Assembly (NCBI RefSeq): GCF_002750975.1
Contig: NZ_PEJS01000001.1
Location: 1,860,001-1,924,000 of the forward strand
DNA: 64,000 nucleotides
Direction of reading: 5' to 3'
From: Stenotrophomonas indicatrix
GTDB lineage: Bacteria > Pseudomonadota > Gammaproteobacteria > Xanthomonadales > Xanthomonadaceae
In this document: positions 1,967 through 30,335 of the stretch, in pieces
How positions within the stretch are numbered: position 1 is the first letter of the stretch
How the letters are laid out: each line of letters opens with the position of its first letter
Translations under genes and position numbers: made by a program
Notes under the pieces: model-generated
Database searches by the model: none
The model's input: only the letters and a program-made list of their open reading frames with translations
What the model was told of the DNA's origin: nothing

Positions 1967-2096
1967 CGTTGCGTTCCTGCAGGCAGTGAGCGGTGCGCCC
2001 TGGAGCGCGCCCAAGGCTGCATTTTCGCTGCTGCGAGGTGAATGTGGTGAGGGCACGACCGAAGCGCGTGCACCGCCCCCTCATCCTGGGCTGGAC

Positions 2097-4365
<2,269 letters not shown>

Positions 4366-4410
4366 GGCGCCAATCTACGCCCCCAAAACACATTCTTGCA
4401 GAGGCATAAT

Positions 4411-4429
4411 CGGATATCGCTTATATCCG
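4411..4429. promoter_or_regulatory. Inverted repeat, probable operator for the adjacent LysR regulator
   Basis: CGGATAT and ATATCCG form perfect 7-bp arms around a 5-bp spacer. The site sits 10 bp before the lysR start at 4440 and about 45 bp before the divergent flavodoxin gene start. Position and symmetry fit a LysR-type autoregulatory and activation site, but no binding data are implied. Confidence 0.55.
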
Positions 4430-4439
4430 GTGCGCATCA

Positions 4440-5333: not shown

Positions 5334-5345
5334 ACGGCGGCACGG

Positions 5346-6500: not shown

Positions 6501-7555
6501 GGTGCAAGCGTCCGGGTGTAGAACGTGGTGAGCGAGGCGACGGCAGCATCCACGTACTTCGGCACCCAGTAGGTCTCGATGTGCGTGGCCCCCTCCAGCA
6601 GCACCAGCTGCTTGTCGATGGTACCGGTTGCTTTGGCGAAGGCATCCTGGGTCATGTAAAGGCTGTCCGCCTTGCTGCCGGCAATCATCAGCAGCGGTTG
6701 GTTGATCAGCTCGATCTGGTTGGTGGCGTCCCAGCGCATCAGGTCCAGCAGGCTGCTGGTCGTGTACCGGAAGGTGGAATTGGGATGGGCATGCGTCTTC
6801 CAGTAGTACTCATAGCCCTGCCGATACAGATCGAAGGGGAGCTTGGCGATCTGCTCGTCGCTGAGGTTGGCATCGCCGGAGTACAGCACTTCGCCGCCGG
6901 CGGCCTGCTGTGCGCGCGCCTGCGAAGCCTGCTGCAGGCGCTGCTGGACGGTGTCCAGCTGCGAGTCGGCATAACCGTTGCGGCGAACTCGGCCAGAGTT
7001 GAACATGCTGATCGTGGCGACGGCCTTGAAGCGCTTGTCGGTCTGCGCGGCCGCCAGCGAGTAGCCGCCGCCACCACAGATGCCGAGCAAGCCCAGGCGC
7101 GAGGTGTCCACCCAGGGGAATCGACTGATGAAGTCCGCCATGCCGTGGATGTCCTCGATGCGGTGGGAAGGCATGTCCACGCTGCGCGGCTGGCCACCGC
7201 TTGCCCCCTGATAGGCCGCATCGGCGGTAATGGCGATGTAGCCCTGCTGGGCCAGGCGTTGCGCGTACAGGCCGGCCACCTGCTCTTTGACCCCGCCATT
7301 GGGGTGGGCAACCACGATGGTCGGGTACTTCCGCGAGGCATCAAAATTGGCGGGCGTGTAGAAGTTTGCCGCGATCTCGATTCCATTCAGCGGATAGGAC
7401 ACCGAGTGAATGTTGACCTCACTGGGCACATTGCGCGTGATCGCACCTTCGTAGGCCAGTTGGAAGGGGTTGAGCGTGTAGTCGGCAGCGGAGGCGTTGC
7501 CTGCTGCCAAGCCGAGAGACATCGCCAACAGCGTGGCGTGCACGATGTGCTTCAT
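6497..7555 (-). CDS. Secreted alpha/beta hydrolase with cysteine nucleophile (dienelactone hydrolase-like)
   Basis: A 352-residue protein with a clear signal peptide (LAAGNASA|ADY). The alpha/beta-hydrolase core shows the oxyanion segment YPTIVVAHPNGGVKEQ and the nucleophile elbow LGICGGGGY, with Cys160 in the place of the usual serine, as in dienelactone hydrolases. The C-terminal histidine is in LEGATHIETYW. It should hydrolyse an ester or lactone in the periplasm. It is the first gene of a two-gene unit with the cupin-CMD protein (ATGA overlap). The palindromic motif at 7671-7694 lies about 120 bp upstream. The closest relative in the window is the hydrolase at 55435-56493, which has the same GxCxG elbow. 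Confidence 0.88.
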   Translation of the reverse strand: MKHIVHATLLAMSLGLAAGNASAADYTLNPFQLAYEGAITRNVPSEVNIHSVSYPLNGIEIAANFYTPANFDASRKYPTIVVAHPNGGVKEQVAGLYAQRLAQQGYIAITADAAYQGASGGQPRSVDMPSHRIEDIHGMADFISRFPWVDTSRLGLLGICGGGGYSLAAAQTDKRFKAVATISMFNSGRVRRNGYADSQLDTVQQRLQQASQARAQQAAGGEVLYSGDANLSDEQIAKLPFDLYRQGYEYYWKTHAHPNSTFRYTTSSLLDLMRWDATNQIELINQPLLMIAGSKADSLYMTQDAFAKATGTIDKQLVLLEGATHIETYWVPKYVDAAVASLTTFYTRTLAP

Positions 7556-7670
7556 TCAAGTGCTCCGGGTTTGTACGTTACCCCTGACGGCGCGTGTTGC
7601 GGGCCGACGTTGGCGGGGTTCAGGAGTAAACCTAACGTCCGTGCACTCATGGAAACAGAGCATCAGCCGG

Positions 7671-7694
7671 ATATCACTCATGCATGCATGATAT
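7671..7694. promoter_or_regulatory. Palindromic motif upstream of the hydrolase operon
   Basis: ATATCA and TGATAT arms enclose the perfect 14-bp palindrome TCATGCATGCATGA (7678-7691). The sub-sequence ATGCATGCATGATAT (7680-7694) recurs with one mismatch at 8946-8960, upstream of the next hydrolase gene. A shared regulator binding site is the simplest explanation, but it is inferred from two copies only. Confidence 0.4.
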
Positions 7695-7772
7695 GAATGA
7701 CGAATTGGCGAGCGGCGCAGCATCCAGGACGCCACACTCCATGGCGCGATCCATGCACGGGCGCGGTCCGGC

Positions 7773-8867
7773 TCAACGATCCAGATGCTTCTTCTGCAGG
7801 AACTCACTCACAAGATCGGCGATCTGGACGTTGTTGAGGTCTGAGAACAGGAAGTGGCTGTTGCCACGGATTCCCATCTCCGGCAGATGGATCAGGGTGA
7901 CATCACCGCCCTGCCGATTGACGGCATCACGCCAGGCGCGGGCCATTTCCAACCGGGCCCGCCAACTGTCCTGCGCCGGCAGGTCAACGGGCTTGTCAGG
8001 GATGTTGTCGCCATACAGCACCAGAATCGGGATCCGGGTCAGCGCCTTGAATTCCGCGGGCGAAACCAGCGCGGGAGCGACGGTATCGAACGCGCTGGGA
8101 ATCGGTGCCGGCGCATCGTCCTTTGCGAACACGAAGCTGCTGCCAGGCTCGAACGCGACGATCGCGCGGACGTTGGGGCTTTTTATGGCCGTCATCCAGC
8201 CAGGACCACCCGCCTGCGAATGGGTAAACAGGATCGCAGGCCCTGTCTTCTGCAGCACGGCGGCTACCCCGTCCGACACTACGCCGAGGTCGAAGGGGCC
8301 GGTGTTGGGCGTGACCGAACGGAAGAACTGGTCAAGCGCGGCCTCCCCTTTCGGGAACTGGCTGCCAGCGAAGTAGTTTGGCCAGAGGCCGATTCGAAAC
8401 TGGTTGAACCACATCTGATCGTCTGCCACGGGCTTCAGCGTCGCCTCGACCATGCTTCGGCCGGCCTTGCCGCGCCGTGGTTGATCGATCAGGTAGGTAG
8501 CGAAACGACGACGCAGGAACAGGTTCTGGAAGCCCTCACGCCCATCGGCCGTCGTCTCCCAGCTCTTGGAAGACTGGCCCGCACCGTGCCACATCACGAT
8601 GGGCAACGTGCGCGCGTTCACCGGCTTCTGGTAGAAGGCATAGACGTGATCGCCGTGATAGCTCTGGCCATCCGGATTGGAGGGCTTCAACGGATCGAAC
8701 GTGCCAGACTCCTTCTTGGTCGTGCCCCCAGCGAGGAAGCTGCCTTGCGAATCGATCTGCAGTGGCTCGTTGGCCATGGCGGTCGTGGCGCAGAGGGAGA
8801 CCGCTATCCAGAGCAGTGTGGAGGGGAAGCTGGGCACCAGAGTGCGAAGGCGCGTGCGAGTCTGCAT
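7773..8867 (-). CDS. Secreted alpha/beta hydrolase (esterase-like)
   Basis: A 364-residue secreted protein (signal peptide ending TTAMA|NEP). The fold elements are LPIVMWHGAGQSSKSWE (oxyanion loop), ILFTHSQAGGPGW (nucleophile serine in an HSQAG elbow, a GxSxG variant), ILVLYGDNIPD (acid region) and GNSHFLF (histidine). Length is usual for periplasmic esterases annotated as alpha/beta fold hydrolases. It is transcribed alone: the neighbour at 9004 is 137 bp upstream and the gene at 7555 is more than 200 bp downstream. The motif at 8946-8960 is in its upstream region. The substrate is unknown. Confidence 0.87.
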   Translation of the reverse strand: MQTRTRLRTLVPSFPSTLLWIAVSLCATTAMANEPLQIDSQGSFLAGGTTKKESGTFDPLKPSNPDGQSYHGDHVYAFYQKPVNARTLPIVMWHGAGQSSKSWETTADGREGFQNLFLRRRFATYLIDQPRRGKAGRSMVEATLKPVADDQMWFNQFRIGLWPNYFAGSQFPKGEAALDQFFRSVTPNTGPFDLGVVSDGVAAVLQKTGPAILFTHSQAGGPGWMTAIKSPNVRAIVAFEPGSSFVFAKDDAPAPIPSAFDTVAPALVSPAEFKALTRIPILVLYGDNIPDKPVDLPAQDSWRARLEMARAWRDAVNRQGGDVTLIHLPEMGIRGNSHFLFSDLNNVQIADLVSEFLQKKHLDR

Positions 8868-8945
8868 GGGTCACTCCGTGACAGATTGTCAGGGGAATCT
8901 ACCCTCCGGGCCATCCTGGAAGAAGCGCGGGAGTGCATATGACCA

Positions 8946-8960
8946 ATGCATGCAGGATAT
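8946..8960. promoter_or_regulatory. Second copy of the ATGCATGCA(G/T)GATAT motif
   Basis: ATGCATGCAGGATAT matches 14 of 15 bases of 7680-7694 and likewise precedes a secreted hydrolase gene (start at 8867). TATATATGCA follows directly, giving partial symmetry around the centre (TGCAT/ATGCA). It is proposed as a shared operator; evidence is similarity and position only. Confidence 0.35.
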
Positions 8961-9003
8961 ATATGCACGTCCATCGTGTTGCAGTGAGTGTGAGTGATGA
9001 GCG

Positions 9004-9738
9004 CTATCGCGCCAGGGCCTCGGCCAGAATGTTGCCCATCACGTCAGATCTTGGCATTTGGTTGACTGGAATTTCGGCTTGTTCAAACCACGCTCGGCTG
9101 GCCTCAGGGTGCGGACCCGTCAGAACAACTTTTCCCGAACCATAGCGGTACGCGGCGGCGCTTACATCGCCATTCTTGTAGTGCCCAAGCGCCTTGAACC
9201 CAGGAGAGGGAGATTCAGGGAAATAGGGGCCGTCCTGGAAGAATATTTGATCTTGATGCCCAAGCCACTCCACGGCAACGGAATCGTCGACAATCGAATG
9301 CACTGGGAAGCCAGGACGGTTGACGGCACTATCCAACTCCTCGTCAATCAGCGCTAGATTGTTCGCGTCCGCCAGATACGCGCCCATGCATAAGCCAAGG
9401 TAGTGGCCGCCCTGATCGACGTACTCCCTGATGGCGTTCGAACGCTGCTTGCCTAGAGCACGAAGAGCAGCTGGAATATTCTGGCCTCCACCAGGTTGAA
9501 TGTAGAGATCGAAGCGCTTCAGATTTTCAGATGTAACATCCAGCGGCTCATCCGACCCGACGTATTCCACCTGGTACTTTCCCGATTTTTCGATCGAGCG
9601 TCGAACGGTCTCAGAGCAGTCATCGCATCCCGCATCGCCACGATAGACTGCGATACGAGGAAGAGTCGAGGATAACGCCGCGCCCGAAACCGGGAGCAGT
9701 GATGTCAGGAGTATTCCTGCCCACAGGTATTTAGCCAC
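9004..9738 (-). CDS. BPL_N-domain (class I amidotransferase-like fold) secreted protein
   Basis: A 244-residue protein with a signal peptide (PVSGAALSS). The start is GTG at 9738, preceded by AGGAGA. It matches the biotin-protein-ligase N-terminal (BPL_N) family, a glutamine-amidotransferase-like fold: IAVYRGDAGCDDC, FDLYIQPGGGQNIPAAL, GGHYLGLCMGAYLA (the position of the nucleophilic elbow, with Cys) and GSGKVVLTGPHPEASRAW. No biotin ligase domain is attached, so it is not a BirA enzyme. Its base use is visibly more AT-rich than its neighbours, which hints at separate ancestry. It is monocistronic, with about 450 bp upstream before arsB. The reaction is unknown. Confidence 0.82.
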   Translation of the reverse strand: MAKYLWAGILLTSLLPVSGAALSSTLPRIAVYRGDAGCDDCSETVRRSIEKSGKYQVEYVGSDEPLDVTSENLKRFDLYIQPGGGQNIPAALRALGKQRSNAIREYVDQGGHYLGLCMGAYLADANNLALIDEELDSAVNRPGFPVHSIVDDSVAVEWLGHQDQIFFQDGPYFPESPSPGFKALGHYKNGDVSAAAYRYGSGKVVLTGPHPEASRAWFEQAEIPVNQMPRSDVMGNILAEALAR

Positions 9739-9949
9739 CGGAAGATCTCCTGTGAATCACTGAAGTCATCTGCATACGACGGTGGCCAAGAGCGGTGGCG
9801 GGTGGCCGGATTACGCTGCATTGCGGGTGAATTTGCTCTGAATCAAATGGACACAGAATGATGCGGGAGCATGTCCACTGCGTCCCTGTTCCACCGACAT
9901 TTGTAGCGGCCACCGAGCCGTAGTTGAGGCGGCGCCACTTGGCGTCTTG

Positions 9950-9973
9950 CCGGCCAGCGGCCGGCACTACCCT
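9950..9973 (-). repeat. REP-like element of the SMAG type
   Basis: GCCGGCC-AGC-GGCCGGC forms a 7-bp stem with a 3-base loop, followed by ACTACCC. Read on the minus strand it starts with the GTAG signature of Stenotrophomonas REP-like elements. Identical cores are found at 13134-13150 and 60017-60033. Confidence 0.8.
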
Positions 9974-10080
9974 TGCGATGCGGATGTCCGGAATCGATAT
10001 TACCGTGACGCGTCACGATCAATGGCATGCGCCTTCAATCGGGCGCACGTCGGGTTCTGATACAGCCCTTTGCTGGCGGG

Positions 10081-10098
10081 GCCGGCACTGCAGCCGGC
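10081..10098. repeat. Short GC hairpin, REP-related
   Basis: Two copies of GCCGGC, each self-complementary, flank ACTGCA and form a hairpin or alternative pairing. It lies 100 bp before the ArsB-family gene. It resembles REP debris but lacks the GTAG-type end, so the assignment is weak. Confidence 0.4.
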
Positions 10099-10189
10099 AC
10101 GGTATGATGCCGACTTTCTCGCACTTGCCATCGCTCTAGCGCGCGTTGCTGTTGGCTCGCGCCGGTGCAGCTGAGACCCCACCCACTCC

Positions 10190-11437
10190 ATGCTCGCTTC
10201 CTGTTCCCCCTTCATCATCTGGGCGGCCGTGGCCGTTGCCACCGTCGGCCTGCTGTTCCGGCCGTTCCGCATTCCGGAGTACGTGTGGGCGCTGGGCGCG
10301 GCCGCGCTGCTTCCGCTGCTTGGGGCGGTGTCGCTCGGCACGACCTGGCATGCGGTTGCCGAAGGCCGGGATGTCTACCTGTTCCTGGTCGGCATGATGG
10401 TGCTGGCCGAGCTGGCGCGGCGCGAGGGCCTGTTCGACTGGCTGGCGCTGTATGCGGTACGGCATGCGGGCGGCTCGGGGCGGCGGTTGTTCGACCTGGT
10501 GTTCCTGGTCGGCACGGTGGTGACGGTGTTCCTGTCCAACGATGCCACGGCGGTGGTGCTGACGCCCGCGGTCTATGCGGCGTGCAAGGCGGCCCGCACC
10601 AACCCCCTGCCCTATCTGTTTGTCTGCGCGTTCATCGCCAATGCGGCGAGCTTCGTGCTGCCTATTTCCAACCCGGCCAACCTGGTGGTGTACGGCAACC
10701 ACATGCCGCCGCTGCTGCAGTGGCTGGCGCAGTTCGCGCTGCCTTCGCTGGCCGCGATCGGTGCCACGTATCTGGTGCTGCGCTGGGTGCATCGCCGCGA
10801 GATCGCCCAGCCGTTGGCGGCATCGCCCGAGCATCGCCCGCTTACCGAGGGTGGCCGCCTGAGTGCGCTGGGTGTGTTGTTCACCGGCACCGTGCTGCTG
10901 GTGACCTCCGCACTGAACGGCCCATTGGGCCTGACAACGTTCTGTGCGGGCGCGCTGAGCGTAGCGGTGGTGGCGATCCGCCAGCGCCGCAGCCCGCTGC
11001 CGCTGTTGCGCCACGTCTCCTGGGGCGTGCTGCCGCTGGTGGCCGGCCTGTTCGTGCTGGTTGAAGCGGTTTCGCAGACCGGTGTCATCCAGACAGCGGC
11101 CAGCAACCTGCAGGCGTTGGCGCAGACCTCGCCGCATCAGGCGGGCTGGCTGGCCGGAGGCGCAGCCGCACTGCTCAGCAACGTGGCCAACAATCTGCCG
11201 GTGGGCCTGGCGGCGGGCTCGCTGGGCCAGATGGCCGAACTGCCGGCGCAGACGCGCGCGGCGTTGCTGATCGGCGTGGACCTGGGCCCGAACCTGTCGG
11301 TGACCGGCTCGCTGGCTACCATGCTGTGGCTGGTGGCGCTACGCCGCGAAGGCGAGCATGTCAGCGCGCTCGACTTCCTGCGTGTCGGCGCGCTGGTGAT
11401 GCCGCCCGCGCTGATCGGGGCGTTGCTGCTGCTCTGA
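10190..11437 (+). CDS. arsB: ArsB-family arsenite / anion transporter
   Basis: A 415-residue inner-membrane protein with about 11-12 hydrophobic segments. Ion-transporter (ArsB/NhaD) superfamily signatures are FLVGMMVLAELARREGLFDWLA, VFLSNDATAVVLTPAVYA, LPISNPANLVVYG, LLSNVANNLPVGLAAG and GVDLGPNLSVTGSLATMLW. ArsB exports arsenite and antimonite by the proton gradient, alone or with ArsA. Length fits ArsB. No arsR, arsC or arsA lies beside it. The only other arsenic-type gene in the window is the ArsN2-like acetyltransferase 30 kb away, so the substrate is inferred from family only. Confidence 0.88.
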   Translation: MLASCSPFIIWAAVAVATVGLLFRPFRIPEYVWALGAAALLPLLGAVSLGTTWHAVAEGRDVYLFLVGMMVLAELARREGLFDWLALYAVRHAGGSGRRLFDLVFLVGTVVTVFLSNDATAVVLTPAVYAACKAARTNPLPYLFVCAFIANAASFVLPISNPANLVVYGNHMPPLLQWLAQFALPSLAAIGATYLVLRWVHRREIAQPLAASPEHRPLTEGGRLSALGVLFTGTVLLVTSALNGPLGLTTFCAGALSVAVVAIRQRRSPLPLLRHVSWGVLPLVAGLFVLVEAVSQTGVIQTAASNLQALAQTSPHQAGWLAGGAAALLSNVANNLPVGLAAGSLGQMAELPAQTRAALLIGVDLGPNLSVTGSLATMLWLVALRREGEHVSALDFLRVGALVMPPALIGALLLL

Positions 11438-11542
11438 TCAGGCGCGGGCTGGAACGCCAGGCGCGTCTATCGCGACCAGCGCAGCGCCCAGGATCGGCAA
11501 CTACCTCACAGACACCTGGTCAGTACACCGCCCCGGTGCAGA

Positions 11543-12595
11543 TTACTCGGCGTAGCTGGCGGTGTTCTTGCCGTGCCGTTTTGCGTGATAGAGCGCCTTG
11601 TCCGCCTTCGCCAACCAATCTTCTGCGCTGCCCGTGCCAGCCGCTGCGGCGATGCCGATACTGACGCTGAACTGGATATCGGCTGTTTCAGGGGCACCCG
11701 GCTCCTGCAGGTAGTGCCTTATCTGCTCGGCCACATCCATGGCCTCTGCCGGTATCCGCTGGCGCAGCAGGACGGCGAACTCATCACCGCCCAGACGCGC
11801 TGGCATGTCACCCGGCTGGGCTAGCTGACGCAGCACTACCGCGATGCGGCGAAGCACCTCATCGCCGGCACGATGGCCATGCGAGTCATTGATCCGCTTG
11901 AAATCATCAACATCAAGCATCAGCAGGCACGCGTCGCCGCCGTGGTGCTGCCCCGTCTGCAGCACCTGCTGGGCGCGCTGGATCAGGAAGCCGCGGTTGG
12001 CCAGCTCAACCAACGGATCCATCCGGCTCAGGCGCTGCAGTTGGCGATTCTGTGATTTCACCCGGCGCGCCAGCCGCCAGCTCAGCACGCTCAACCCGAT
12101 GCCGTAGACGAACAGGAAAGGCAGGCTGAGGACAACCGTGCGCTGCGAGGTGATGGGTTGATAAGGCAGGCCCAGGGCAAGCCAGGTGGCGGCGAACCCG
12201 ACCACCAGGGCCAGGGTTGCCCTCGTTGCCAGGCGGATGCCGCCGGCGGCGATCTTGTCGGCCACCAGTAGCGCGGCAAACAACGCACTGGGCACCGTGC
12301 TGAGGGCCATGAAGGCGATCCATGCGCCTCCAAAAAGAGAGTCGACGATCATGCAGCGGAACTGCGCTGCTGCAGGCTCACGGGCGCGACGTGTCAGGAG
12401 CATCGCCAGCGCCGGCCATGCGAGGGCGTTGAGCAACAGCAGCACCCAGGGGGCAGCATCCGCCTGACGCTCCAGAATGATCGAGGCAATTGGAAGCGCG
12501 CCCAAGCCGTTCCCCACGAAGCGCATCCAGCCGATGCGCCGGGCTGCACCGACGCCCTCGACGGCGACTTCTGTTGAGTCAGTGAGAAACGGCAT
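11543..12595 (-). CDS. MASE2-GGDEF diguanylate cyclase (AdrA/DgcC-like)
   Basis: A 350-residue membrane enzyme that should make cyclic di-GMP from two GTP. Residues about 15-175 form a MASE2-type sensor with multiple membrane segments (RRIGWMRFVGNGLGALP start; WVLLLLNALAWPALAMLL; LPFLFVYGIGLSVLSW). The GGDEF domain follows, with substrate residues DVDDFKRINDSHGH and the active site RLGGDEF. The inhibitory I-site normally reads RxxD five residues before GGDEF; here it is QPGD, so the arginine is missing and feedback inhibition may be weak. The start ATG follows AGGAGAGCTGGCA. The gene is isolated, with no PDE or BcsA nearby. AdrA-type enzymes control biofilm and cellulose, but the output here is unknown. 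Confidence 0.95.
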   Translation of the reverse strand: MPFLTDSTEVAVEGVGAARRIGWMRFVGNGLGALPIASIILERQADAAPWVLLLLNALAWPALAMLLTRRAREPAAAQFRCMIVDSLFGGAWIAFMALSTVPSALFAALLVADKIAAGGIRLATRATLALVVGFAATWLALGLPYQPITSQRTVVLSLPFLFVYGIGLSVLSWRLARRVKSQNRQLQRLSRMDPLVELANRGFLIQRAQQVLQTGQHHGGDACLLMLDVDDFKRINDSHGHRAGDEVLRRIAVVLRQLAQPGDMPARLGGDEFAVLLRQRIPAEAMDVAEQIRHYLQEPGAPETADIQFSVSIGIAAAAGTGSAEDWLAKADKALYHAKRHGKNTASYAE

Positions 12596-13314: not shown

Positions 13315-14187
13315 TCAGCTGGCGTCGACGCCAGCGAGATCGCCATCGTTGCCGATCTCCCAACGCAGTTCGAAGTTCAGTTCCAGCTGTTGTCCCGGCT
13401 GCAACCGGGTCGGCGCCAGCGTGAATCCGTCGGGTGGTCCGGTCTGCGGCTCCACGCAGGTGGCGTGCGCTGCCCCGTCATAGACCACCCAGTGATCGGT
13501 GTCGGCGCTCAGCCGCAGCCGCTGGCCGGCGGCAACCAGCGTCACTTCGGCCTGGTTGATGAAGCAGTCATCCCACGGCCCCTGCGTTGGCTGCACGCAG
13601 GGCAAGGTGGCGATGCCCTCCCCGTCGCGCGGGTACATCGCGCTGGGTGCGAACAGCAGTCGATCCGGCTTGCGGAACCAGGGATGCCAGCCAAGCACGG
13701 CTGGCATTGCCATGGCACCGGCCTGCACTGCGAGGCGCAGCTTCAGGCGGTCGGGTTGCACGAGGAGATGCTGCAATGCCTTGCCTCCGAAGGGCCAATA
13801 GGCGTCCTCAGGCAGGTCCAGCGACAGCGAGGCGCCGTCCGGTTCAAGGCGGTCGATGCGCCAGGGCCGTGAGAAGCCGACGCCATGGATGGCGTGCATT
13901 CCGAAGTTCACCGGCAACTGATAGGGCCTGCCGTCGAAGGCGAAGCGCCCGTGCCGGATGCGCCCGGCCCAGGGCAGCATGGGATAGCACCCCCACGCAA
14001 TGCCCGCCTGCCCTACTTCATGTTCGCTGACGAGCCAGTCCACACCGTCACAGCGTAGTTGGGCGATGCGCCCACCGGCTTCCGGTGCGAGCGCGACCTC
14101 CAGCCTGCCTGCGCGCAACCAGTGCAGTGGGCCGGCAGGCAGCGCCGCCTGCGCATCATCCATGGGCAAAGTCGGCTCAGGTGCCAT
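13315..14187 (-). CDS. Aldose 1-epimerase (galactose mutarotase family)
   Basis: A 290-residue mutarotase-like protein. The start ATG at 14187 overlaps the end of the transporter-GH43 gene by 11 bp, so it is the last gene of that operon; starts further upstream would lie inside it. The beta-sandwich signature residues are present: the His pair in GMHAIHGVGFSRPW and LGWHPWFRKP, and the base Glu in CVEPQTGPPDG. It interconverts alpha and beta anomers of aldoses. In a xylan locus it should speed delivery of the alpha-anomer of xylose to xylose isomerase. No signal peptide, hence cytoplasmic. Confidence 0.92.
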   Translation of the reverse strand: MAPEPTLPMDDAQAALPAGPLHWLRAGRLEVALAPEAGGRIAQLRCDGVDWLVSEHEVGQAGIAWGCYPMLPWAGRIRHGRFAFDGRPYQLPVNFGMHAIHGVGFSRPWRIDRLEPDGASLSLDLPEDAYWPFGGKALQHLLVQPDRLKLRLAVQAGAMAMPAVLGWHPWFRKPDRLLFAPSAMYPRDGEGIATLPCVQPTQGPWDDCFINQAEVTLVAAGQRLRLSADTDHWVVYDGAAHATCVEPQTGPPDGFTLAPTRLQPGQQLELNFELRWEIGNDGDLAGVDAS

Positions 14188-16657
14188 AGGGATGGATCGT
14201 CCGGATGCTGCCGTCTGCTTCCATGTGCAGCGGTGTGCACTTGACCGAACGCAGGTGGGTGACCCCGCCGGACAGCAACGCGTCGTGATAGAACAAGTAC
14301 CACCGCCCCTGGAACGCACAGATGGAGTGATGGGTGGTCCAGCCCACCACGGGGGTGAGGATCACGCCGCGATAGGTGAACGGCCCGTACGGGCTGTCGC
14401 TGGTGGCATAGCACAGCAGGTGCGTATCACCAGTGGAGTACGACAGGTAATACCGGCCCTGGTGTTTGTGCAGCCACGGTCCTTCGAAGAAGCGACGGGC
14501 ATGGTCGTCGGCGCGCAGCGGCTGCCCGTGCTCGTCCAGGATGACGATCTCCCGGGTGGGTTCGGCAAGCCGGGTCATGCCGGCATCCAGTCGCCCGATA
14601 CGCGGGCCCAGTGCCGGCGCCTCGCCGGCAGGTTCTTCATGCGCCGGGTCGTAGCGGTTGTCGCGGTACTTCTGCAGCTGGCCACCCCAGATGCCACCGA
14701 AACAGAGGTAGTGCGTGCCGTCGTCGTCCTCGAACACGGCCGGGTCGATCGAGTACGCGCCCTTGATGGGTTCGGGTTCTGGAGTGAACGGGCCCTCCGG
14801 CCGATCCGCCGCCGCAACGCCGATGCGGAACATGCCGTGGTCGTCCTTGGCCGGGAAGTACAGGTAATAGCGGCCATCGCGGGAGGCGGCATCCGGTGCC
14901 CACATCTGCTGGCTGGCCCAGGGCACGTCGCGCACATGCAGCGCCACGCCGCAGTCGGTGGCCTCGCCCTCCGGTGTGTCCATCCGCAGCACGTGGTAGT
15001 CCTGCATGCCGAAGTGGCCGCCCTCATCGTCGAAGGGGGCGCCGCTGTCGATGTCGTGCGATGGATAGATGTACAGCCGTCCCTCGAACACATGGGCCGA
15101 AGGGTCGGCCGTGTAGATGTGGCTTACCAGGGGCTGGGAGATGGCGTGTGCTGCCAGTTGCTGCAGATCGCTGCCCTGGCGCCGCGACTGCAGGTCCTGC
15201 TCGATGCGGGTCTCCATGCGCTTGTTGATCTCGTAGAGGAAAAGCAGCGCTACTGCAGCCAGGAACGGCAGGGAGCAGTACACACTCACCGTCAGGCGGA
15301 TACCATCCACCACGGCTTCGGGCTGTTGCGGTGCGCCTGCCTGGTAGCCGTGATGGGCGAGGATGCCGGCGACCAGCGCGCCACCGATGCTGAGCCCGAT
15401 CTTCAGGCCACACAGCATCGCCGAGAAGACGATGGCGGTGGCACGGCGATGGTTCTTCCATTCGGAGTAGTCGGCGACGTCGGCGATCATCGCCCACAGC
15501 AGCGGGATGGTGATGCCGTAGCAGAACCCGTGCAGCATGAAGGCAGCGAAGGCCACGGCAACCGCCGTGGGCGGGAAGAAATAGAACACCAGCAGGAACA
15601 CGGTGGACACCAGCAAGGCACCGCCAAAGACATCACGCTTGCCGAAACGGTCGGCCAGGCGGCGCGATACGCCGATGCCCAGGATCATGCAGACGATGCC
15701 GCAGGCGTTGAACAGGCTGAAGGCCGATGTTGCCGGATCCTTCGGCCAGGCAAAGCCGGCCAGGCCCAGGCCGTTGAGTGCCGCGTTGACGGCGCCGATG
15801 AAGCGGTTGAAGCCGGAGGTGTCGAGAAAGCCCGCCAGGGCGGCCTCGCTCATGTAGTACTGGAAGTAGTAGACGTAGGTGCCGCCCTTCAGCGACAGGT
15901 TGATGAAGACCAGGATGGTCAGCGCCAGCATCACCTTCCACGGGCGGTTGCGCAGCAGGTCGGACAGGTCCTGCAGCACCCCGGCAGTCTGTTCCTTCGC
16001 CGGTACGATGCGCTCGCGCGTGGTGGCGAAGGTGATCAGGAAGAACACCGTTCCCACCACCGCAAATACCGTCATGACCCGCTCGAAGCCCAGCACCCGG
16101 TCGCCGTCGCCGAGGATCAGCACCAGCGGCAGCAGCAGGACCTGGATGATGAACTGCGCGATCATCACCGCCACGAAGCGGTAGGCCGACAGGCTGTTGC
16201 GCTGGGCCATGCTGCCGGTGAGCACGCCACTGAGTGCCGAGTACGGCAGATTGTTGGCCGCATACACGAGCATCAACAGGCCGTACGTGGCCAGGGCGTA
16301 GACGACCTTGGCGCGCGGCGCCAGGTCGGGGGTGCTGAAGGCCAGCAGTGACAGCAGCCCGAAGGGAATCGCCGTCCACAGGATCCACGGCCGGAACTTG
16401 CCCCAGCGGCTGACCGTGCGATCGGCGGCGATGCCGATCAACGGGGTGAACACGAAGGCACCGAGCACGCCGATCACGAAGATGATCGTGGCGGCCGTGG
16501 CGGGCGGCAGCCGGTACACATCGGTGTAGAAGAACGCGAGGTAGGTGATCAGCGTCTGGAAGATCAGGTTGGCGGCCAGGTCGCCCAGGCTGTAGCCGAG
16601 CTTCTCCCGGATGGACAGCGTGTGCCCGGTGCTTTCCATGCGGCGCGCATCAGTCAC
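14177..16657 (-). CDS. GPH-family sugar:cation symporter fused to a GH43 glycosidase domain
   Basis: A single 826-codon frame joins two enzymes. Residues about 10-478 are a glycoside-pentoside-hexuronide symporter with 12 predicted membrane segments (IREKLGYSLGDLAANLIFQ; SRWGKFRPWILW; WAMIADVADYSEWK). A charged linker at about 479-505 (INKRMETRIEQDLQSRRQG) leads to a GH43 five-blade propeller at about 506-826. The GH43 catalytic set is complete: Asp518 (TADPSAHVF), Asp638 (SIDPAVFED) and Glu725 (FFEGPWLHK). The symporter C-terminus is cytoplasmic, so the glycosidase should cut xylo- or arabino-oligosaccharides as they enter. The start is GTG 16657, preceded by GGAG and overlapping the GH3 stop; ATG 16639 is the alternative. 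The frame is unbroken through the linker. Confidence 0.9.
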   Translation of the reverse strand: MTDARRMESTGHTLSIREKLGYSLGDLAANLIFQTLITYLAFFYTDVYRLPPATAATIIFVIGVLGAFVFTPLIGIAADRTVSRWGKFRPWILWTAIPFGLLSLLAFSTPDLAPRAKVVYALATYGLLMLVYAANNLPYSALSGVLTGSMAQRNSLSAYRFVAVMIAQFIIQVLLLPLVLILGDGDRVLGFERVMTVFAVVGTVFFLITFATTRERIVPAKEQTAGVLQDLSDLLRNRPWKVMLALTILVFINLSLKGGTYVYYFQYYMSEAALAGFLDTSGFNRFIGAVNAALNGLGLAGFAWPKDPATSAFSLFNACGIVCMILGIGVSRRLADRFGKRDVFGGALLVSTVFLLVFYFFPPTAVAVAFAAFMLHGFCYGITIPLLWAMIADVADYSEWKNHRRATAIVFSAMLCGLKIGLSIGGALVAGILAHHGYQAGAPQQPEAVVDGIRLTVSVYCSLPFLAAVALLFLYEINKRMETRIEQDLQSRRQGSDLQQLAAHAISQPLVSHIYTADPSAHVFEGRLYIYPSHDIDSGAPFDDEGGHFGMQDYHVLRMDTPEGEATDCGVALHVRDVPWASQQMWAPDAASRDGRYYLYFPAKDDHGMFRIGVAAADRPEGPFTPEPEPIKGAYSIDPAVFEDDDGTHYLCFGGIWGGQLQKYRDNRYDPAHEEPAGEAPALGPRIGRLDAGMTRLAEPTREIVILDEHGQPLRADDHARRFFEGPWLHKHQGRYYLSYSTGDTHLLCYATSDSPYGPFTYRGVILTPVVGWTTHHSICAFQGRWYLFYHDALLSGGVTHLRSVKCTPLHMEADGSIRTIHPYGT

Positions 16658-19322
16658 GGTTGGTCTCCACGGTGAACCCGGCCTTCGCGCGGATGTCGGC
16701 GCTGGAGCTGCCCACCCATGCCTCGTACGCGCCCGCCGGCACGGCATAGCCCCCGCGCGCGTCGTCATAGTGGCGCAGGGCCTGCTGCGCTTCCAGGTCG
16801 AACACCACGGTGCGCCGCTCGCCTGCGGCCAGGTGCACACGCTGGAAGCCGCGCAATGTCTGGCGTGCGTCGCCAGGCCCGGCCTGCAGCCGTCGCACAT
16901 ACAGCTGGACCACTTCGTCGCCGGCGCGCTTGCCCGTGTTGGCGATCTCGACCTGCACCTTGAGTGTCCCGTCGTTGGCGATGCGCGTTGAATCGAGCTG
17001 CAGCCTGCCGTAGTCGAAGCGGGTGTACGACAGCCCGTGCCCGAACGGATACAGCGGGGTACCGAGGAAGTAGCGGTAGGTGCGTCCTTCCATCGTGTAG
17101 TCGTCAAAGGCCGGCATCGCCTCGTCCGCCTTGTAGAAGGTCACCGGCAGGCGCCCGCCCGGATTGACGTCACCGAACAGCGCCTGGCCGACGGCAGTGC
17201 CGCCGCGTTGCCCGGGATACCAGCTCATCAGGATGGCGGACAGATTCTGCTGCGCCCAGTCCACCGCCATGGCAGAGCCGCCGGTGAGGACCATCACCAC
17301 CGGTTTGCCGGTGGCATGCAGCGCTTCCAGCAGCGAGCGCTGGGGCGCGGGCAGGCGCAGGTCGGTACGGTCACCGCCAGCGAAGCCCGGGTAGTTGACC
17401 TTCATCTCTTCGCCTTCGACGTCGCCGGTGAGGCCGCCCACGAACACCACCACATCGGCGTTGCGCGCGGCCTCCAGCGCCGCTTCGAACGGCGGCTTGG
17501 CACCGGGCATGCGCCACCCCAGGCGGACGCCGGCATCGCGCTCGGCGTCGAAGTACTCAAGCCTCAGGTCATAGGCGCGGCCGGCCTGCAGGTCCAGTTC
17601 CACGCCATCGCCGTGCAGGCGATCACTGTTGGCCCAGTGGTCGAGCACCCGCTTGCCGTCCACGTAGAGGCGGAAACCATCGTCGGCGGCCGCCTCGATC
17701 CGGTAGCGCCCCGAGACGGGCGGCAGCAACTGGCCAGTCCAGCGGATGCTGAAACCATCGCTGGGGATGCCCTGCCCCGGTGCGGCTTCACCACGGGCCA
17801 GCAGGTTGTCGGTCGGGGAGCCCCGATCCCAGCGGAATCCGATCTGGGCATCGGTGCGGACCAGGGCCGGAGTGCCGGAAAGATCGGCGGTACGGAAGTA
17901 CTCGCCGCGCAGCCCGCGCTCCGGGGAGTCAGCCGACGGGCGCAGGTAGGTCGCTTCGATCAAGGGTGTAGCGCTGGGATCGTCGCGCCCTTCAACCAGG
18001 TCCACGCCGCGTGCGTAGCTCACCTCGATTCCCTTGGCGGCATCGCGGATGCCCTGCAGGAGGGTGACCGGCGCGGCCGGGGTGCCGAAGTAGTTGCCGA
18101 GCAGTGCCATGGTGTCATCGGCCGTGGGGCCGATCACGGCGATGCGCTTCAGGTTGCGGGACAGCGGCAGCACGCCATCGTTCTTCAGCAGCACCAGCGA
18201 TTCCTGGGCGGCCTTCAGGGCCAGCGCATCATGCGCCGGAGCCTGGTTGACCGACGCGGGAATCTGCGCCCAGCGCACGCGCTCGGGTGGGTCGAACATG
18301 CCCAGCCGCATCCGCGCGGCAAACAGGCGGGTCACCGCATCGTCGATCTCCGCCTCGCTGATCAGGCCCTGCCGTACTGCCGCCGGCAGCGTGGCGTACT
18401 CCTGGCCGCACTCCAGTTCGGTGCCGTTGCGGACCGCCAACGCGGCAGCCGCCTCGCGGCTGGGAACGATCCGGTGATGTTTCCAGATGTCGACGATGGC
18501 CCAGCAGTCGGACACCACGTAGCCCTTGAAGCCCCAGTCACGGCGCAGCACGTCGCGCAGCAGGAACCGGCTGGCGCTGGCGGACTCGCCGTACACCCGG
18601 TTGTAGGCGCCCATCACCGCGTCCACCTGCCCCTCTTTCACCAGCGCCTCGAACGCGGGCAGGTAGGTGTCGTACAGGTCGCGCTTGCTCGGGCGCGCAT
18701 CGAAGTGGTGGCGGTCGGCCTCGGGGCCACTGTGCACGGCCAGGTGCTTGGCGGTGGCGTCGAGCTTGCGGTACACCGGGTCATCGCCCTGCAGGCCGTG
18801 CACGAAGGCCACGCCCATGCGGGCGGTGAGGTACGGGTCCTCGCCGTAGGTTTCCTGGCCACGGCCCCATCGCGGGTCGCGGAAGATGTTGATGTTCGGC
18901 GACCAGTAGGTCAGCCCCTGGTAGCGGCCATGCGAACCTTCACGGAGGAACTGGTGATGCTTGGCACGGGCTTCGTCGCTGATGGTGCTGGCCACCTGCC
19001 CCATCAGCGGCACATCGAAGGTGGCCGCCAGGCCGATGGCCTGCGGAAACACGGTGGCCTGCCCTGCCCGCGCCACGCCATGCAGGCCTTCGTTCCACCA
19101 GTCGTAGGCGGGAACGCCCAGGCGCTCGATCGCGGGCGCGGCGTTCTGCATCTGCGCTGCCTTCTCCTCCAGGGTCATCCGTGCGACCAGGGCAGCGGCG
19201 CGGTTTTCGAAGCTGGCCGAGGTGTCGAGCCAGGGCGCGGGCTCGGCTGCGTAACCCGTGCCCGCCAGCGCGATGGCAGCGCACAGGGCCAGCGTGCGGA
19301 AGATGGGAGTGCGCGTCATCAT
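16650..19322 (-). CDS. GH3 beta-xylosidase/beta-glucosidase with PA14 domain, secreted
   Basis: An 890-residue secreted enzyme (signal peptide ending GTGYAA|EP). The GH3 N-terminal barrel has YDWWNEGLHGVARAG, WSPNINIFRDPRWGRGQETYGEDP and KHLAVHSGPEADRHHFDA. The nucleophile is Asp272 in YVVSDCWAI. A PA14 insert at about residues 475-610 (YFRTADLSGTPAL to LGWRMPG) sits inside the C-terminal alpha/beta domain, and a fibronectin III-like end closes it. This layout is usual for bacterial beta-xylosidases releasing xylose from xylo-oligosaccharides, the role expected here. The ATG overlaps the GH43 stop (ATGA) and is preceded by GAGGAG. It lies between two GH43-containing genes in a tightly coupled operon. 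Confidence 0.94.
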   Translation of the reverse strand: MMTRTPIFRTLALCAAIALAGTGYAAEPAPWLDTSASFENRAAALVARMTLEEKAAQMQNAAPAIERLGVPAYDWWNEGLHGVARAGQATVFPQAIGLAATFDVPLMGQVASTISDEARAKHHQFLREGSHGRYQGLTYWSPNINIFRDPRWGRGQETYGEDPYLTARMGVAFVHGLQGDDPVYRKLDATAKHLAVHSGPEADRHHFDARPSKRDLYDTYLPAFEALVKEGQVDAVMGAYNRVYGESASASRFLLRDVLRRDWGFKGYVVSDCWAIVDIWKHHRIVPSREAAAALAVRNGTELECGQEYATLPAAVRQGLISEAEIDDAVTRLFAARMRLGMFDPPERVRWAQIPASVNQAPAHDALALKAAQESLVLLKNDGVLPLSRNLKRIAVIGPTADDTMALLGNYFGTPAAPVTLLQGIRDAAKGIEVSYARGVDLVEGRDDPSATPLIEATYLRPSADSPERGLRGEYFRTADLSGTPALVRTDAQIGFRWDRGSPTDNLLARGEAAPGQGIPSDGFSIRWTGQLLPPVSGRYRIEAAADDGFRLYVDGKRVLDHWANSDRLHGDGVELDLQAGRAYDLRLEYFDAERDAGVRLGWRMPGAKPPFEAALEAARNADVVVFVGGLTGDVEGEEMKVNYPGFAGGDRTDLRLPAPQRSLLEALHATGKPVVMVLTGGSAMAVDWAQQNLSAILMSWYPGQRGGTAVGQALFGDVNPGGRLPVTFYKADEAMPAFDDYTMEGRTYRYFLGTPLYPFGHGLSYTRFDYGRLQLDSTRIANDGTLKVQVEIANTGKRAGDEVVQLYVRRLQAGPGDARQTLRGFQRVHLAAGERRTVVFDLEAQQALRHYDDARGGYAVPAGAYEAWVGSSSADIRAKAGFTVETNRD

Positions 19323-21010
19323 TTGCTCCTCAATGCACGCTCGTCGCGCGCGAATGGTCCCAGCAGGGCGCCGACGAAGCCGCCTGCACGATCCGTACTC
19401 AACACCGTTCCGTCCACGTCATCGGCCAGTGTCTGCCAGCCACGCCCGTCGCCGCTGTCGAAGGCGAACGCATAGCGGCCTTCGTCACCGGCGATCTTCA
19501 GGCGCAGCGACGTCGCTGCCGTTGCCTGGCGCGTTGCCAGGGTGCGGGTGACACCGCCGCCGTCGCGCGCTTCCAGGAAGACCGCCACGCGCTCACCGCC
19601 GAGGCTGCGCACGCCAAGGAAATACCAGTGGGTCTCGCTCTGGAAAGCTGCCAGGCCTGCGGCCACGTCCGCCGCCGGCCGGGTCATGGCCGTGCTGGAT
19701 TCGAAGCGCAGGTGCTGCTGGCGCCGGCCGAGGAACGCGGGGTTGCGCAGCGTGTCCAGGTTCTCCGCCAGCGGATGGATGGCCAAGGCCCCCGGTCGCT
19801 CGCGCAGGTCCGCCCACGACTGCCTGGGGATGCGCACGCGCAGCCAGCCGCTGCCGAGTGCCGGCGCATCGAATTCGTCACGATCGGTGAAATTGCCGGT
19901 GGACGGCGCCTGCGACGCTTCGCCCTGCATCCAGGAGGGCGCTCTGGCCGCATACGGAATGACCTGGTTGGCCGGCAGGATCACCGGCCAGCCGTCACGC
20001 CATTGCACCGGCAGCAGATAGGTCTCGCGCCCGGTGTTGTAGTGGCGCGTGTCGTAGTTGCGGCTGGCAAGGAACACCGCCCACCATGAGCCGTCCGGCC
20101 CCTCCACCAGATCCGCATGTCCGGCATTGGTGATCGGCAACGGCCTGTCGGCAGGCAGGTCACGCTGGGTGAGAATCGGATTGCCCGCATACGGCACGTA
20201 GGGCCCCCACACATCACGGCTGCGCAGCACCACCTGCGAATGTTGCGGCCCGGTGCCGCCTTCCGCGTCGGAGAGGTAGTACCAGCCATCGCGTTGGTAG
20301 ATGTGCGGCCCCTCGATCCAGATCGGGTTCCTGGCCGGCTCCACCCCGCCGTCGATCAACACCTTGCGAGGGCCTACCGGGGTGAAGGTCGCCAGATCCA
20401 TCTGCTGCATCCAGATGGCACGGTGGCCCTCGTAACGTGGCGGGCCGGGCGGTACATCGTTGTTGAGCAGATACACGGTGCCGTCGCTGTCGAAGAACAA
20501 TGACGGATCGATCCCATCGATGCCAGGCAGCCAGTGCGGGTCGGACCAGGGACCGGCAGGATCACGGGCGGTAGCGATGAAGTTGCCGCCGCTGTCGACG
20601 GCCGTGGTGACCACGTAGAACATGCCGTGGTGGTAACTGATGGCCGGTGCGAAGATGCCGCGCGACACGCCCAGTCCGTCGAAGTCCAGCTGCGACGGTC
20701 GGTCGATCACATTGCCGATCTGCTTCCAGTGCACCAGGTCCACGCTTTCGAACACCGGGATGCCCGGGAAGTAGGTGAAGCTGGAATTGACCAGATAGAA
20801 GCGCCCGTTTGCGGCGACGATGCTGGGGTCGGCATGGAACCCGGCAAGGATCGGGTTGCGATAGTGCCCGGCCGGCAACGGCGCATCGAAGGCCGCGTCG
20901 CGACCGCTGTACTCGAACCAGTCGAAGTAGACCGGCGGCGCGGGCGGCGCTGCCCACGCCTGCGGCAGGAACGACATCAACATGAGTACTGGAGCCAGCA
21001 GCAGACGCAT
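19319..21010 (-). CDS. GH43 beta-xylosidase / alpha-arabinofuranosidase, secreted
   Basis: A 563-residue secreted enzyme (signal peptide ending PQAWA|APP). The propeller carries Asp61 (GFHADPSIV, base), Asp168 (GIDPSLFF, pKa modulator) and Glu233 (IWIEGPHIY, acid). A C-terminal beta-sandwich runs from about residue 350 to the end (GALAIHPLAENLDTLRNPAFLGRRQ), as in two-domain GH43 xylosidases and arabinofuranosidases. It should trim xylose or arabinose from the non-reducing end or side chains in the periplasm. Its ATG (21010) overlaps the esterase stop by one base, so starts further upstream are ruled out by that gene. It is coupled to the GH3 gene by ATGA. Confidence 0.93.
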   Translation of the reverse strand: MRLLLAPVLMLMSFLPQAWAAPPAPPVYFDWFEYSGRDAAFDAPLPAGHYRNPILAGFHADPSIVAANGRFYLVNSSFTYFPGIPVFESVDLVHWKQIGNVIDRPSQLDFDGLGVSRGIFAPAISYHHGMFYVVTTAVDSGGNFIATARDPAGPWSDPHWLPGIDGIDPSLFFDSDGTVYLLNNDVPPGPPRYEGHRAIWMQQMDLATFTPVGPRKVLIDGGVEPARNPIWIEGPHIYQRDGWYYLSDAEGGTGPQHSQVVLRSRDVWGPYVPYAGNPILTQRDLPADRPLPITNAGHADLVEGPDGSWWAVFLASRNYDTRHYNTGRETYLLPVQWRDGWPVILPANQVIPYAARAPSWMQGEASQAPSTGNFTDRDEFDAPALGSGWLRVRIPRQSWADLRERPGALAIHPLAENLDTLRNPAFLGRRQQHLRFESSTAMTRPAADVAAGLAAFQSETHWYFLGVRSLGGERVAVFLEARDGGGVTRTLATRQATAATSLRLKIAGDEGRYAFAFDSGDGRGWQTLADDVDGTVLSTDRAGGFVGALLGPFARDERALRSK

Positions 21011-22992
21011 CAGGGAACCTCCGCAGGGGTGATGGAAAGCTCGAACGGGCCGGCGGGCGCCCCACTGCTGTCGCGCAGGGTGCACACCGGGCCATCGGCC
21101 CAGCAGTAGCGCACGCGCCCGCCCGCGTAAGCCAGTGGGCTGCGCAGCACGACGTCGTGCCCGTGCAGCACCGCGTCGGCGTAGCGGCAGTGGTGCGCAT
21201 CGGCGTCGCACAGCTCGAAGCCGATGGGGCCGTTCGCGCCGGTCGTGACCAAGGTGCCGGTGACCCCGTTGAAGCGGATACGCACGCCGGCGCGCGTGGC
21301 CGATGCCGTGTGTGCAGTTGGGCCGGCGGGCGCCAGGCTGCGCTCGCCATAGACCACATGGCGCGCTGCCCGCGCCAGCCGCCGGCCCAGTTCCTGCTTG
21401 TTCGGCGGGTGGATGTCGTAGGCATCGCCGATGTCGATGGCCACGGCCAGCCCGGTGCGCGGGTCTTCCGCCGCAGCGAGCCGCTGCGCCTCGCGCACCT
21501 GCGCCCAGCCACTTTCAACCGGCGCCACGGGTGGCTGGCCATAGCCGGCCAGCTGCACCAGCAGCAGCGGCGTGTGCGCGCCGAACCGCCCCCGCCAGTC
21601 GTCGCGCAGGCTGCGCAGGCGTGCGAGGTATGCCGTTGCGTCGCCGGTGTTGGATTCACCCTGGTACCACGGCATGCCGCGCAGGCCATAGGCACCCAGC
21701 GGCGCGATCATGCCGTTGTACAGCGTCGACAGTCCCGTGGCGGCGTGCCACGGTGCCAGCGGCGGCGCCTGTGCGCCGGGCGCCACCCGGTACTGCCAGC
21801 GGGCATCCAGCTCGATGCGCGTACCGTCATCCAGGCCGATGGCGTGCGCGCTCGCGGGCCCTGCAAGGCCACCCTCACCGTAGGTGTCCAGCACATTGAT
21901 CACCACGGTGTTGGCGCCGGCTTTCAGCAAGCCGGCTGGCAGCGCATAGGTTCGCCGCTCGCCCGCACCGTACTGGCTGCCCACGGCCACGCCGTTCACC
22001 CAGGTCATGTCCGTCTCGTCGATGGGGCCGAGCTCAAGCTGTGCGCGCTTGGCGGCCTGGTCGGCGCTCAGTGTCACCTGGGTGCGGTACCAGACCATGC
22101 CGTTGTAGCCGGCCAGCGCTGGCACACCCCAGCGCTCCCACGCCCCGAGCGTGGCGGGTGCGCGTTGCCATCCACGGCTGTCGTTGCCTGGCTGCCAGGG
22201 TGCATCGGCGGCGACGGCATCGGCGCGTGTTGTCCACCAGTGTTGCCACTGCTGGCCCCAACGTTCGTTTGCCGCCGCCGGATCACGCGCGTACAGCGCG
22301 AGCACGTCAAGCGCTGGGCCCAGGCCACCCTGCATGCGCAGGGCATCGCTGCTGGTCCAGGCCTCGATACGCGAGCCGCCCCACGCTGCCTGGATCAGCC
22401 CCATCGGAACGTCGACGCTCTTGCGCAGTTCACGCGCAAAGTAGAAACACGCGGCGGAAAAGTCACGCACGGTGTCCGGTGAGGCGGGGCGCCATGCCAC
22501 AGACGCGGGAAAATCACTCTGTGGTGAAACCGCCGCCGCCTTCGGCACGGTGAACAGGCGGATCCCCGGTTCCGTGGCGGAGGCGATCTCGCTGCCTGCA
22601 TCGAGCGCGCGCCACACCGGAAGCTCCATGTTCGACTGCCCGGAACACAACCAGACATCGCCGATCTGCACGTCGCGCACGATCTGGCTGGCATGCCCGG
22701 ACCGGACCGACATTTCGTAAGGTCCGCCGGCTGCGGCAGGCGGTAGCGTTGCGTGCCAGCGGCCATCGCCAGCCGCGTGCGTGCTGACAGTGCGCCCTGC
22801 AAACGCCACGGAAACCGAGGCGCCAGGCGTGGCCTGGCCCCATACCGGAATCGGCCGGTCACGCTGCAGCACGGCGTGATCCTGGAACAGCGGATGCAGC
22901 AGCGCCATCGTTGATTCCTGTGCCGCTGCACGCGTGGCGCAGCCGCCCATGGCAACCAGCAGCAGCCATCCCACCCACGACGTCGGCTTCAT
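21010..22992 (-). CDS. Sialate O-acetylesterase-family deacetylase, lipoprotein signal
   Basis: A 660-residue protein with a lipoprotein-type signal (LLLVAMGGCATRA). It matches the SASA/SGNH-like esterase family: the nucleophile block GDVWLCSGQSNMELP, the oxyanion block GLIQAAWGGSRIEAW, an inserted jelly-roll (about residues 270-390, WYRTQVTLSADQAAK), then GMPWYQGESNTGDA and the Asp/His block DIGDAYDIHPPNKQELG. In xylan loci these enzymes remove acetyl groups from xylo-oligosaccharides or from acetylated glucuronoxylan; this role is inferred from context. The start ATG overlaps the GH67 stop (ATGA) and has GGAGATGG before it. It is the second gene of the operon. Confidence 0.92.
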   Translation of the reverse strand: MKPTSWVGWLLLVAMGGCATRAAAQESTMALLHPLFQDHAVLQRDRPIPVWGQATPGASVSVAFAGRTVSTHAAGDGRWHATLPPAAAGGPYEMSVRSGHASQIVRDVQIGDVWLCSGQSNMELPVWRALDAGSEIASATEPGIRLFTVPKAAAVSPQSDFPASVAWRPASPDTVRDFSAACFYFARELRKSVDVPMGLIQAAWGGSRIEAWTSSDALRMQGGLGPALDVLALYARDPAAANERWGQQWQHWWTTRADAVAADAPWQPGNDSRGWQRAPATLGAWERWGVPALAGYNGMVWYRTQVTLSADQAAKRAQLELGPIDETDMTWVNGVAVGSQYGAGERRTYALPAGLLKAGANTVVINVLDTYGEGGLAGPASAHAIGLDDGTRIELDARWQYRVAPGAQAPPLAPWHAATGLSTLYNGMIAPLGAYGLRGMPWYQGESNTGDATAYLARLRSLRDDWRGRFGAHTPLLLVQLAGYGQPPVAPVESGWAQVREAQRLAAAEDPRTGLAVAIDIGDAYDIHPPNKQELGRRLARAARHVVYGERSLAPAGPTAHTASATRAGVRIRFNGVTGTLVTTGANGPIGFELCDADAHHCRYADAVLHGHDVVLRSPLAYAGGRVRYCWADGPVCTLRDSSGAPAGPFELSITPAEVP

Positions 22993-25121: not shown

Positions 25122-25232
25122 CCAATGACACCGCTCGCCATCCGGACCGGACCGTTGGACGGCCGGCAAACCTTGTAAGCTCCGAACGTGCGCGGGCTTC
25201 GGCAGCGTCACAGAGAAGAACGGGAGCGCGTA

Positions 25233-30288: not shown

Positions 30289-30335
30289 TGCCGTGCCCCT
30301 CCCCGGTTCGGTGTCATCGATGCGAGCCGCTGTGC

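Follow-up and report, generated by a model that had tools for sequence, protein, structure and literature searches.

A GPH transporter and a GH43_1 glycosidase encoded as one polypeptide in a xylan operon of Stenotrophomonas indicatrix

Among transporters of the GPH family, LacS of streptococci and lactobacilli is described as carrying a fused soluble EIIA-Glc-like domain (PMC10710835). Among enzymes of glycoside hydrolase (GH) family 43, XacGH43_1 of Xanthomonas citri is characterized as a calcium-activated exo-oligoxylanase, monomeric in solution with calcium by small-angle X-ray scattering, that frees xylose from the oligomers X2 to X6 and prefers xylose-derived substrates; docking placed its N-terminal residues Leu5 and Leu10 where long xylo-oligosaccharides reach the far + subsites (PMC7809346). 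The xytB/xytA loci of Xanthomonas campestris are described as xylan utilization loci (PMC3826837). Here we analyze a window of 64,000 nucleotides (nt) from Stenotrophomonas indicatrix (assembly GCF_002750975.1, contig NZ_PEJS01000001.1, positions 1,860,001 to 1,924,000; coordinates below count from its first letter), in which one gene at 14177-16657 on the minus strand encodes both a GPH transporter and a GH43 enzyme of subfamily 1 (GH43_1). This gene is a true translational fusion with both domains complete, and its product is probably a bifunctional, membrane-tethered xylo-oligosaccharide importer and exo-oligoxylanase within a xylan operon.

Translation of the minus strand from 16657 to 14177 yields a single open frame of 826 codons plus stop, as the preliminary description of this stretch had claimed without giving the strand; the plus strand of the same interval is interrupted by a stop, and a plus-strand reading was therefore ruled out. 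The frame starts at GTG 16657 and shares 8 nt with the end of the GH3 gene upstream, whose stop lies at 16650; an ATG at residue 7 is a possible alternative start. At its 3' end the frame runs into the likely ATG of the next gene, for an aldose 1-epimerase. The transporter part comprises residues 14-476 (15230-16618), the join residues 477-507 (15137-15229) and the GH43_1 propeller residues 508-826 (14180-15136), all on the minus strand. The Pfam matches are MFS_2, with its best stretch at residues 21-283, MFS_1 at 311-474 and Glyco_hydro_43 at 577-817; the score for PF13347 is 260.1 against a cut-off of 27, and that for NCBIfam TIGR00792 (gph) is 338.4 against 231.35, which places the transporter in the GPH family. 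At E≤0.01, Glyco_hydro_43 was the only Pfam family in the C-terminal part, and an EIIA-like domain of the phosphotransferase system, as in LacS, was not found there.

The sequence in the Protein Data Bank (PDB) closest to the enzyme half is 6xn0 (E 8.3e-170, query residues 491-825), followed by 5glk and 4mlg; by title all three are GH43 xylosidases, and 6xn0 is named GH43_1. When aligned with XacGH43_1, Asp518 (15104-15106), Asp638 (14744-14746) and Glu725 (14483-14485) pair with Asp30, Asp150 and Glu237, each numbered 488 lower, and are by equivalence the general base, the pKa modulator and the general acid, so that the propeller with the Asp/Asp/Glu triad of GH43 subfamily 1 is present. In the same alignment Trp285 falls on Trp773 and the calcium ligand His288 on His776 (14330-14332), so that the ligand residue of a putative calcium site near subsite -1 is retained.

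A plain hydropathy profile gave 16 overlapping peaks from which helices could not be counted. An AlphaFold2 model was built with 78 sequences and has a mean predicted local distance difference test score (pLDDT) of 87.4 and a predicted template modelling score (pTM) of 0.61; by our own count the model contains 12 long membrane helices, and structure comparison shows a major facilitator fold resembling MelB, like that of MelB and MFSD2A up to residue ~494. Thus, both the complete GPH transporter with 12 transmembrane helices and the complete GH43 domain with the three acids at the positions named above, each claimed in the preliminary description, were recovered. Its placement of the enzyme on the cytoplasmic side also agrees with the 12-helix model and with stand-alone relatives, which lack a signal-like N-terminus as judged by eye; nor is there a signal-like stretch at the start of the fused GH43 part. 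We infer that the product is one inner-membrane protein with its GH43 half on the cytoplasmic face.

The fused form was sought in two genome sets: (i) 101 genomes, comprising this genome and 100 relatives, with matches at E≤0.001; and (ii) 395 genomes of the family, with matches at E≤1e-100. Half of the first set (50 of 101) had any match; 13 of the 101 genomes encode the unbroken fusion, and 12 of 101, by our reading of the match list, hold both parts as adjacent but separate genes. Nothing beyond a more distant GH43 matched in one genome (G029), and the others of the 50 have weaker matches. In two genomes of the same taxonomic order, G066 and G076, the transporter and GH43_1 lie on different contigs or ~390 kb apart. 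In the second set, 147 of 395 genomes matched and 18 of 395 are fused, namely 11 Stenotrophomonas (this genome counted) and seven of genus g33 (probably Xanthomonas), whose fused sequences group in the tree with P0045, a protein named as from X. sacchari. Across the two sets, 24 distinct genomes encode the unbroken fusion. A protein search returned at least 54 fused clusters ahead of the first stand-alone transporter (among the best 120 of 6505 matches, with a ceiling of 8000 candidates reached), and a query built on the Bacteroidota junction returned the same 54 plus a damaged form, P0067 (among the best 120 of 2572). The figure of 54 is a lower bound, as distant fused forms may fall outside the matches listed; 51 of these clusters are Xanthomonadaceae-like, all with the same domain order, and three are Bacteroidota-like. 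The triad motifs were found in 53 of the 54, the remaining cluster not having been parsed by the script.

The preliminary description had considered that only this assembly might fuse the two parts; this does not hold, given the 24 genomes and at least 54 protein clusters, and the same order recurs in other Xanthomonadaceae, in at least 51 Xanthomonadaceae-like clusters. DNA of high GC content often contains long open frames, and the damaged variant P0067 exists, both of which could fit two genes joined by an assembly or sequencing error. However, 10 of the 24 fused genomes are single-contig or nearly so (e.g., G044, G027, G407, G289, G330 and G380), and proteins P0003 and P0004, from other sources, are 99% identical to the fusion. 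As the unbroken fusion occurs across distinct genomes and proteins, we rejected an artefact, the probability of which we consider negligible. P0067 itself is a fused protein of 593 residues in which the transporter start is missing and the GH43 stretch is scrambled as by a local frame change; it may be a draft error or a pseudogene.

Close relatives that hold both parts without fusion mostly have them as two adjacent genes. Of 133 loci collected, 127 were analyzed (L131, L025, L026, L028, L029 and L030 were dropped, a half or the pair missing in range), 96 of them split and 31 fused; this is not a frequency, because some genomes are represented twice and the selection of loci was biased toward in-frame pairs. 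In the split pairs, the distance from the transporter stop to the closest ATG of the enzyme ranges from an overlap of 4 nt to a gap of 111 nt. Among the best 10 of 363 records in a plasmid search, a single one, from Runella, covered at least 80% of the query, and it is annotated as two genes. Eight of the 147 matching genomes of the second set show one bridging match over both parts with one stop inside; read-through of the stop in split relatives found no support, 12 of 12 closely related split loci (L014-L024 and L027) being out of frame. One split relative, L021 (G018), carries an in-frame stop within its GH43 match.

Comparison with the S. maltophilia-like split loci L014-L020 indicates how the join arose. 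In these loci the transporter ends in the same charged helix, followed by a stop and by candidate ATGs 7-17 nt on, and the enzyme begins with ~17 extra residues before the stretch common with the fused form. The junction stretch measures 184 nt in 13 of the 96 split loci, L014-L019 included, and in the 31 fused loci 108 nt in 26, 126 nt in four and 117 nt in one (L102, of Bacteroidota); these are counts of loci, not genomes, and some genomes are counted twice. Since 184 nt in the split form stand against mostly 108 nt in the fused one, the fusion arose by an in-frame deletion of ~76 nt, in which the stop, the ribosome site or upstream region, the start and ~17 codons were lost and the frame corrected. 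Within the join, the C-terminal helix of the transporter (residues 479-494) is followed by the N-terminal helix of the GH43 enzyme (496-504). In structure comparison, MelB crystal structures align to model residue 494-497 (the cryo-electron microscopy structure 8t60 to 475) and XacGH43_1 aligns from 494-495 onward, so that the two proteins abut with no added linker. What had been taken for a short charged linker is instead the terminal helices of both proteins. The join spans 36 residues in 48 of the 54 fused clusters and 26-39 in five, P0032 falling outside the script's pattern; it is seven residues shorter in P0051 and P0052 and shorter in P0053 as well, indicating that the enzyme N-terminal helix is not strictly required. 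Joins of the Bacteroidota type differ among themselves and from those of Xanthomonadaceae.

A single frame could yet give separate products, if an internal start, e.g., at Met481, or proteolysis within the join were to free a soluble GH43. Met481 is conserved throughout the fused sequences compared (16 of 16), the residue at this position being Thr or Ala in S. maltophilia-like split relatives, and the model has low confidence over the join. However, codons 477-488 show a synonymous divergence of 0.21 where the mean is 0.304 (standard deviation 0.089), about one standard deviation low and thus no clear hidden signal; the deletion has removed the stop, the upstream region and the start that the split form has; and P0055 does not have the Met. 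We consider separate products unlikely, and one continuous chain remains our reading.

To place the fusion phylogenetically, identical rows were merged and, besides the loci, six of the 54 fused clusters were included by protein identifier (four in the combined tree). On the transporter tree (122 rows), the fused/split label requires three changes: 29 fused rows of Xanthomonadaceae type form one clade (support 93 in the Shimodaira-Hasegawa-like approximate likelihood ratio test, SH-aLRT), and P0055 and the pair L102 and P0053 stand among split Bacteroidota. The tree of GH43 alone requires four changes, with P0044 beside split S. maltophilia rows, and it does not resolve a single origin; both parts were therefore combined. 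The combined tree (48 rows, 806 columns) unites all 29 in a single clade (bootstrap 95, SH-aLRT 86), the sister of which is the split S. maltophilia-like rows. P0051 falls at the base of the fused rows without firm placement, and P0052 is in no tree; these two, with their shorter join, may stem from a second fusion of the Stenotrophomonas type. The X. sacchari-type sequences, eight rows in all, group together (100/100) inside a fused clade of 20 rows (100/99), the rest of which are Stenotrophomonas rows.

In the X. sacchari-type locus L134 (G330, 1-12032), genes for LacI, GH67, the esterase, GH43, GH3 and the fusion follow in the same order at 75-89% identity, and an aldose 1-epimerase was not found in the 20-kb stretch of this genome. 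Because the X. sacchari-type fusion nests within Stenotrophomonas and this gene order is the same, the operon with its fusion has apparently moved between genera. The Bacteroidota rows suggest one or two further fusions of the same families in the same order; L102 comes from a metagenome-assembled genome.

Across 16 distinct fused sequences of equal length (of 26; 10 were left out for unequal length or identity), the ratio of nonsynonymous to synonymous substitution rates (dN/dS) is 0.116 over residues 7-476, 0.281 over residues 477-507 and 0.098 over residues 508-825. Values of about 0.1 in both halves imply that both are maintained by strong purifying selection, which shows function of both halves, not an advantage of fusing them. 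The deletion may indeed have joined two co-expressed genes of the operon with no gain, each half working as it would alone, an account that opposes coupling of the two activities but not bifunctionality, and to which we give a somewhat less than even chance. Because undoing it would take the simultaneous gain of a stop, a ribosome site and a start, even a neutral fusion would tend to last, and its persistence is weak evidence for benefit. Many relatives, the 12 genomes above among them, keep separate adjacent genes; the join is the least constrained part of the protein and variable in length; and GH43_1 tolerates other N-terminal partners, GH10 and PF01261, in other lineages. Among the matches listed, P0122-P0186 have a GH43_1-like domain preceded by a GH10 xylanase, a PF01261 domain of the xylose-isomerase-like kind or another partner. 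On the other side stand at least one more same-order fusion of both families in Bacteroidota and the spread of the fused form with the operon to X. sacchari-type genomes, although a neutral fusion would be compatible with both.

For the bifunctional importer and enzyme that we favour, the following route may be proposed. Exported enzymes would cut xylan into decorated and plain oligomers; the GPH half, presumably cation-driven, would carry xylo-oligosaccharides across the inner membrane; the GH43 half on the cytoplasmic face would trim xylose from the non-reducing end; and the freed xylose would be taken on by the XylA/XylB-type products of the same cluster. For the fused form, what this route says of substrate, driving cation, location in the membrane and enzymatic activity is a prediction. 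Of the xylo- or arabino-oligosaccharides suggested earlier, the former are the better supported and the latter less so, since the X. citri enzyme, at 71-73% identity, prefers xylose-derived substrates.

Whether tethering truly couples import to hydrolysis, so that free oligosaccharide would not accumulate as suggested earlier, is more doubtful, and we think it rather less likely than a fusion without benefit. In its favour, the fusion recurs in two phyla in the same order, has spread with the operon and retains in its join the enzyme helix bearing Leu498, the equivalent of Leu10 in XacGH43_1. Because this helix belongs to the join itself, it could form a sugar-binding platform at the cytoplasmic mouth of the importer, where each chain would be shortened on leaving the transport path, with hydrolysis helping to pull transport, a proposal we offer as speculative and rather unlikely. 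Such hydrolysis-pulled import would be, by analogy and equally tentatively, a secondary-transport counterpart of group translocation.

Besides the GH43-only tree, several observations weigh against the bifunctional reading or against coupling. The hinge is predicted with low confidence (pLDDT 55 in block 491-500), which together with the pTM means that the model gives no fixed orientation of the domains relative to each other. Against coupling, Leu5 is not kept, its place in the alignment being taken by Arg493. The X. citri enzyme is activated by calcium in vitro (PMC7809346). This fits poorly with the cytosol, where calcium is low. As to cation-driven import, in an alignment, read by eye, against the MelB cation site, which we take to be Asp55, Asp59 and Asp124, Asp59 is replaced by Thr and Asp124 by Asn, and Asp55 falls at a gap, so that a site of this type was not found. 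A sodium site of the MelB type is a feature of MelB and is not known to define the GPH family. The acidic residues at these presumed positions are mostly replaced in this GPH subgroup (transporter part, 15000-16657, minus strand).

The surrounding genes, assigned mainly by Pfam, form a xylan cluster. Downstream of the fusion lies the aldose 1-epimerase gene (13315-14187, minus strand, predicted start), and past that end of the operon a MASE2-GGDEF diguanylate cyclase gene (11543-12595, minus strand). Upstream on the same strand are genes for a GH3 with PA14 (16650-19322), a GH43 with GH43_C2 (19319-21010), a SASA-type esterase (21010-22992) and a GH67 alpha-glucuronidase (22989-25121), the starts of the last three being predicted. 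Beyond a divergent LacI-family regulator (25188-26291, plus strand), the minus strand encodes a second GH3, with Exop_C (26312-28882, predicted start), a Sugar_tr (PF00083) transporter (28879-30510), a xylose-isomerase-like, XylA-type PF01261 protein (30336-31967; for these two frames the start is unrefined) and an XylB-like FGGY kinase, probably a xylulokinase (31714-33207). The earlier claim that the other GH genes carry export signals accords with signal-like N-termini in all five other carbohydrate-active enzymes, one an esterase and four GH. The GH3 with PA14 was judged by eye and the other four by a rough hydropathy rule, a weak one that also matched a membrane helix inside the fusion.

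Both protein families are known and the adjacent gene pair is widespread, whereas the fused architecture appears rare. No published GPH-GH fusion was recognized in literature searches judged from listings and abstract openings, fusions of GPH transporters with other GH families not having been sought systematically. A single chain that joins an importer to an enzyme able to hydrolyse what it probably carries seems rare, the at least 54 fused clusters all being of one architecture. Sister species with fused and split versions, one small deletion apart, offer a natural system for the effects of coupling, and such a pair could show whether coupling alters flux, leakage or competition for xylo-oligosaccharides.

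Of the described systems, XacGH43_1 (Xac4258, PDB 6xn0-6xn2) shares the fold and triad with the enzyme half, and its N-terminal helix is kept in the fusion, but it was studied as a separate protein with no transporter fused. MelB and other GPH transporters (TC 2.A.2), unlike the fusion, are without a C-terminal enzyme. Adjacent transporter and GH43_1 pairs of Xanthomonadaceae and Bacteroidota have the same families in the same order, but as two genes. The xytB/xytA loci resemble this locus in serving xylan utilization, a likeness drawn from their published description that does not imply orthology with XytB. LacS is likewise a GPH transporter with an extra soluble domain; however, that domain is regulatory, whereas its counterpart in the fusion is a hydrolase acting on the sugar that is probably imported.

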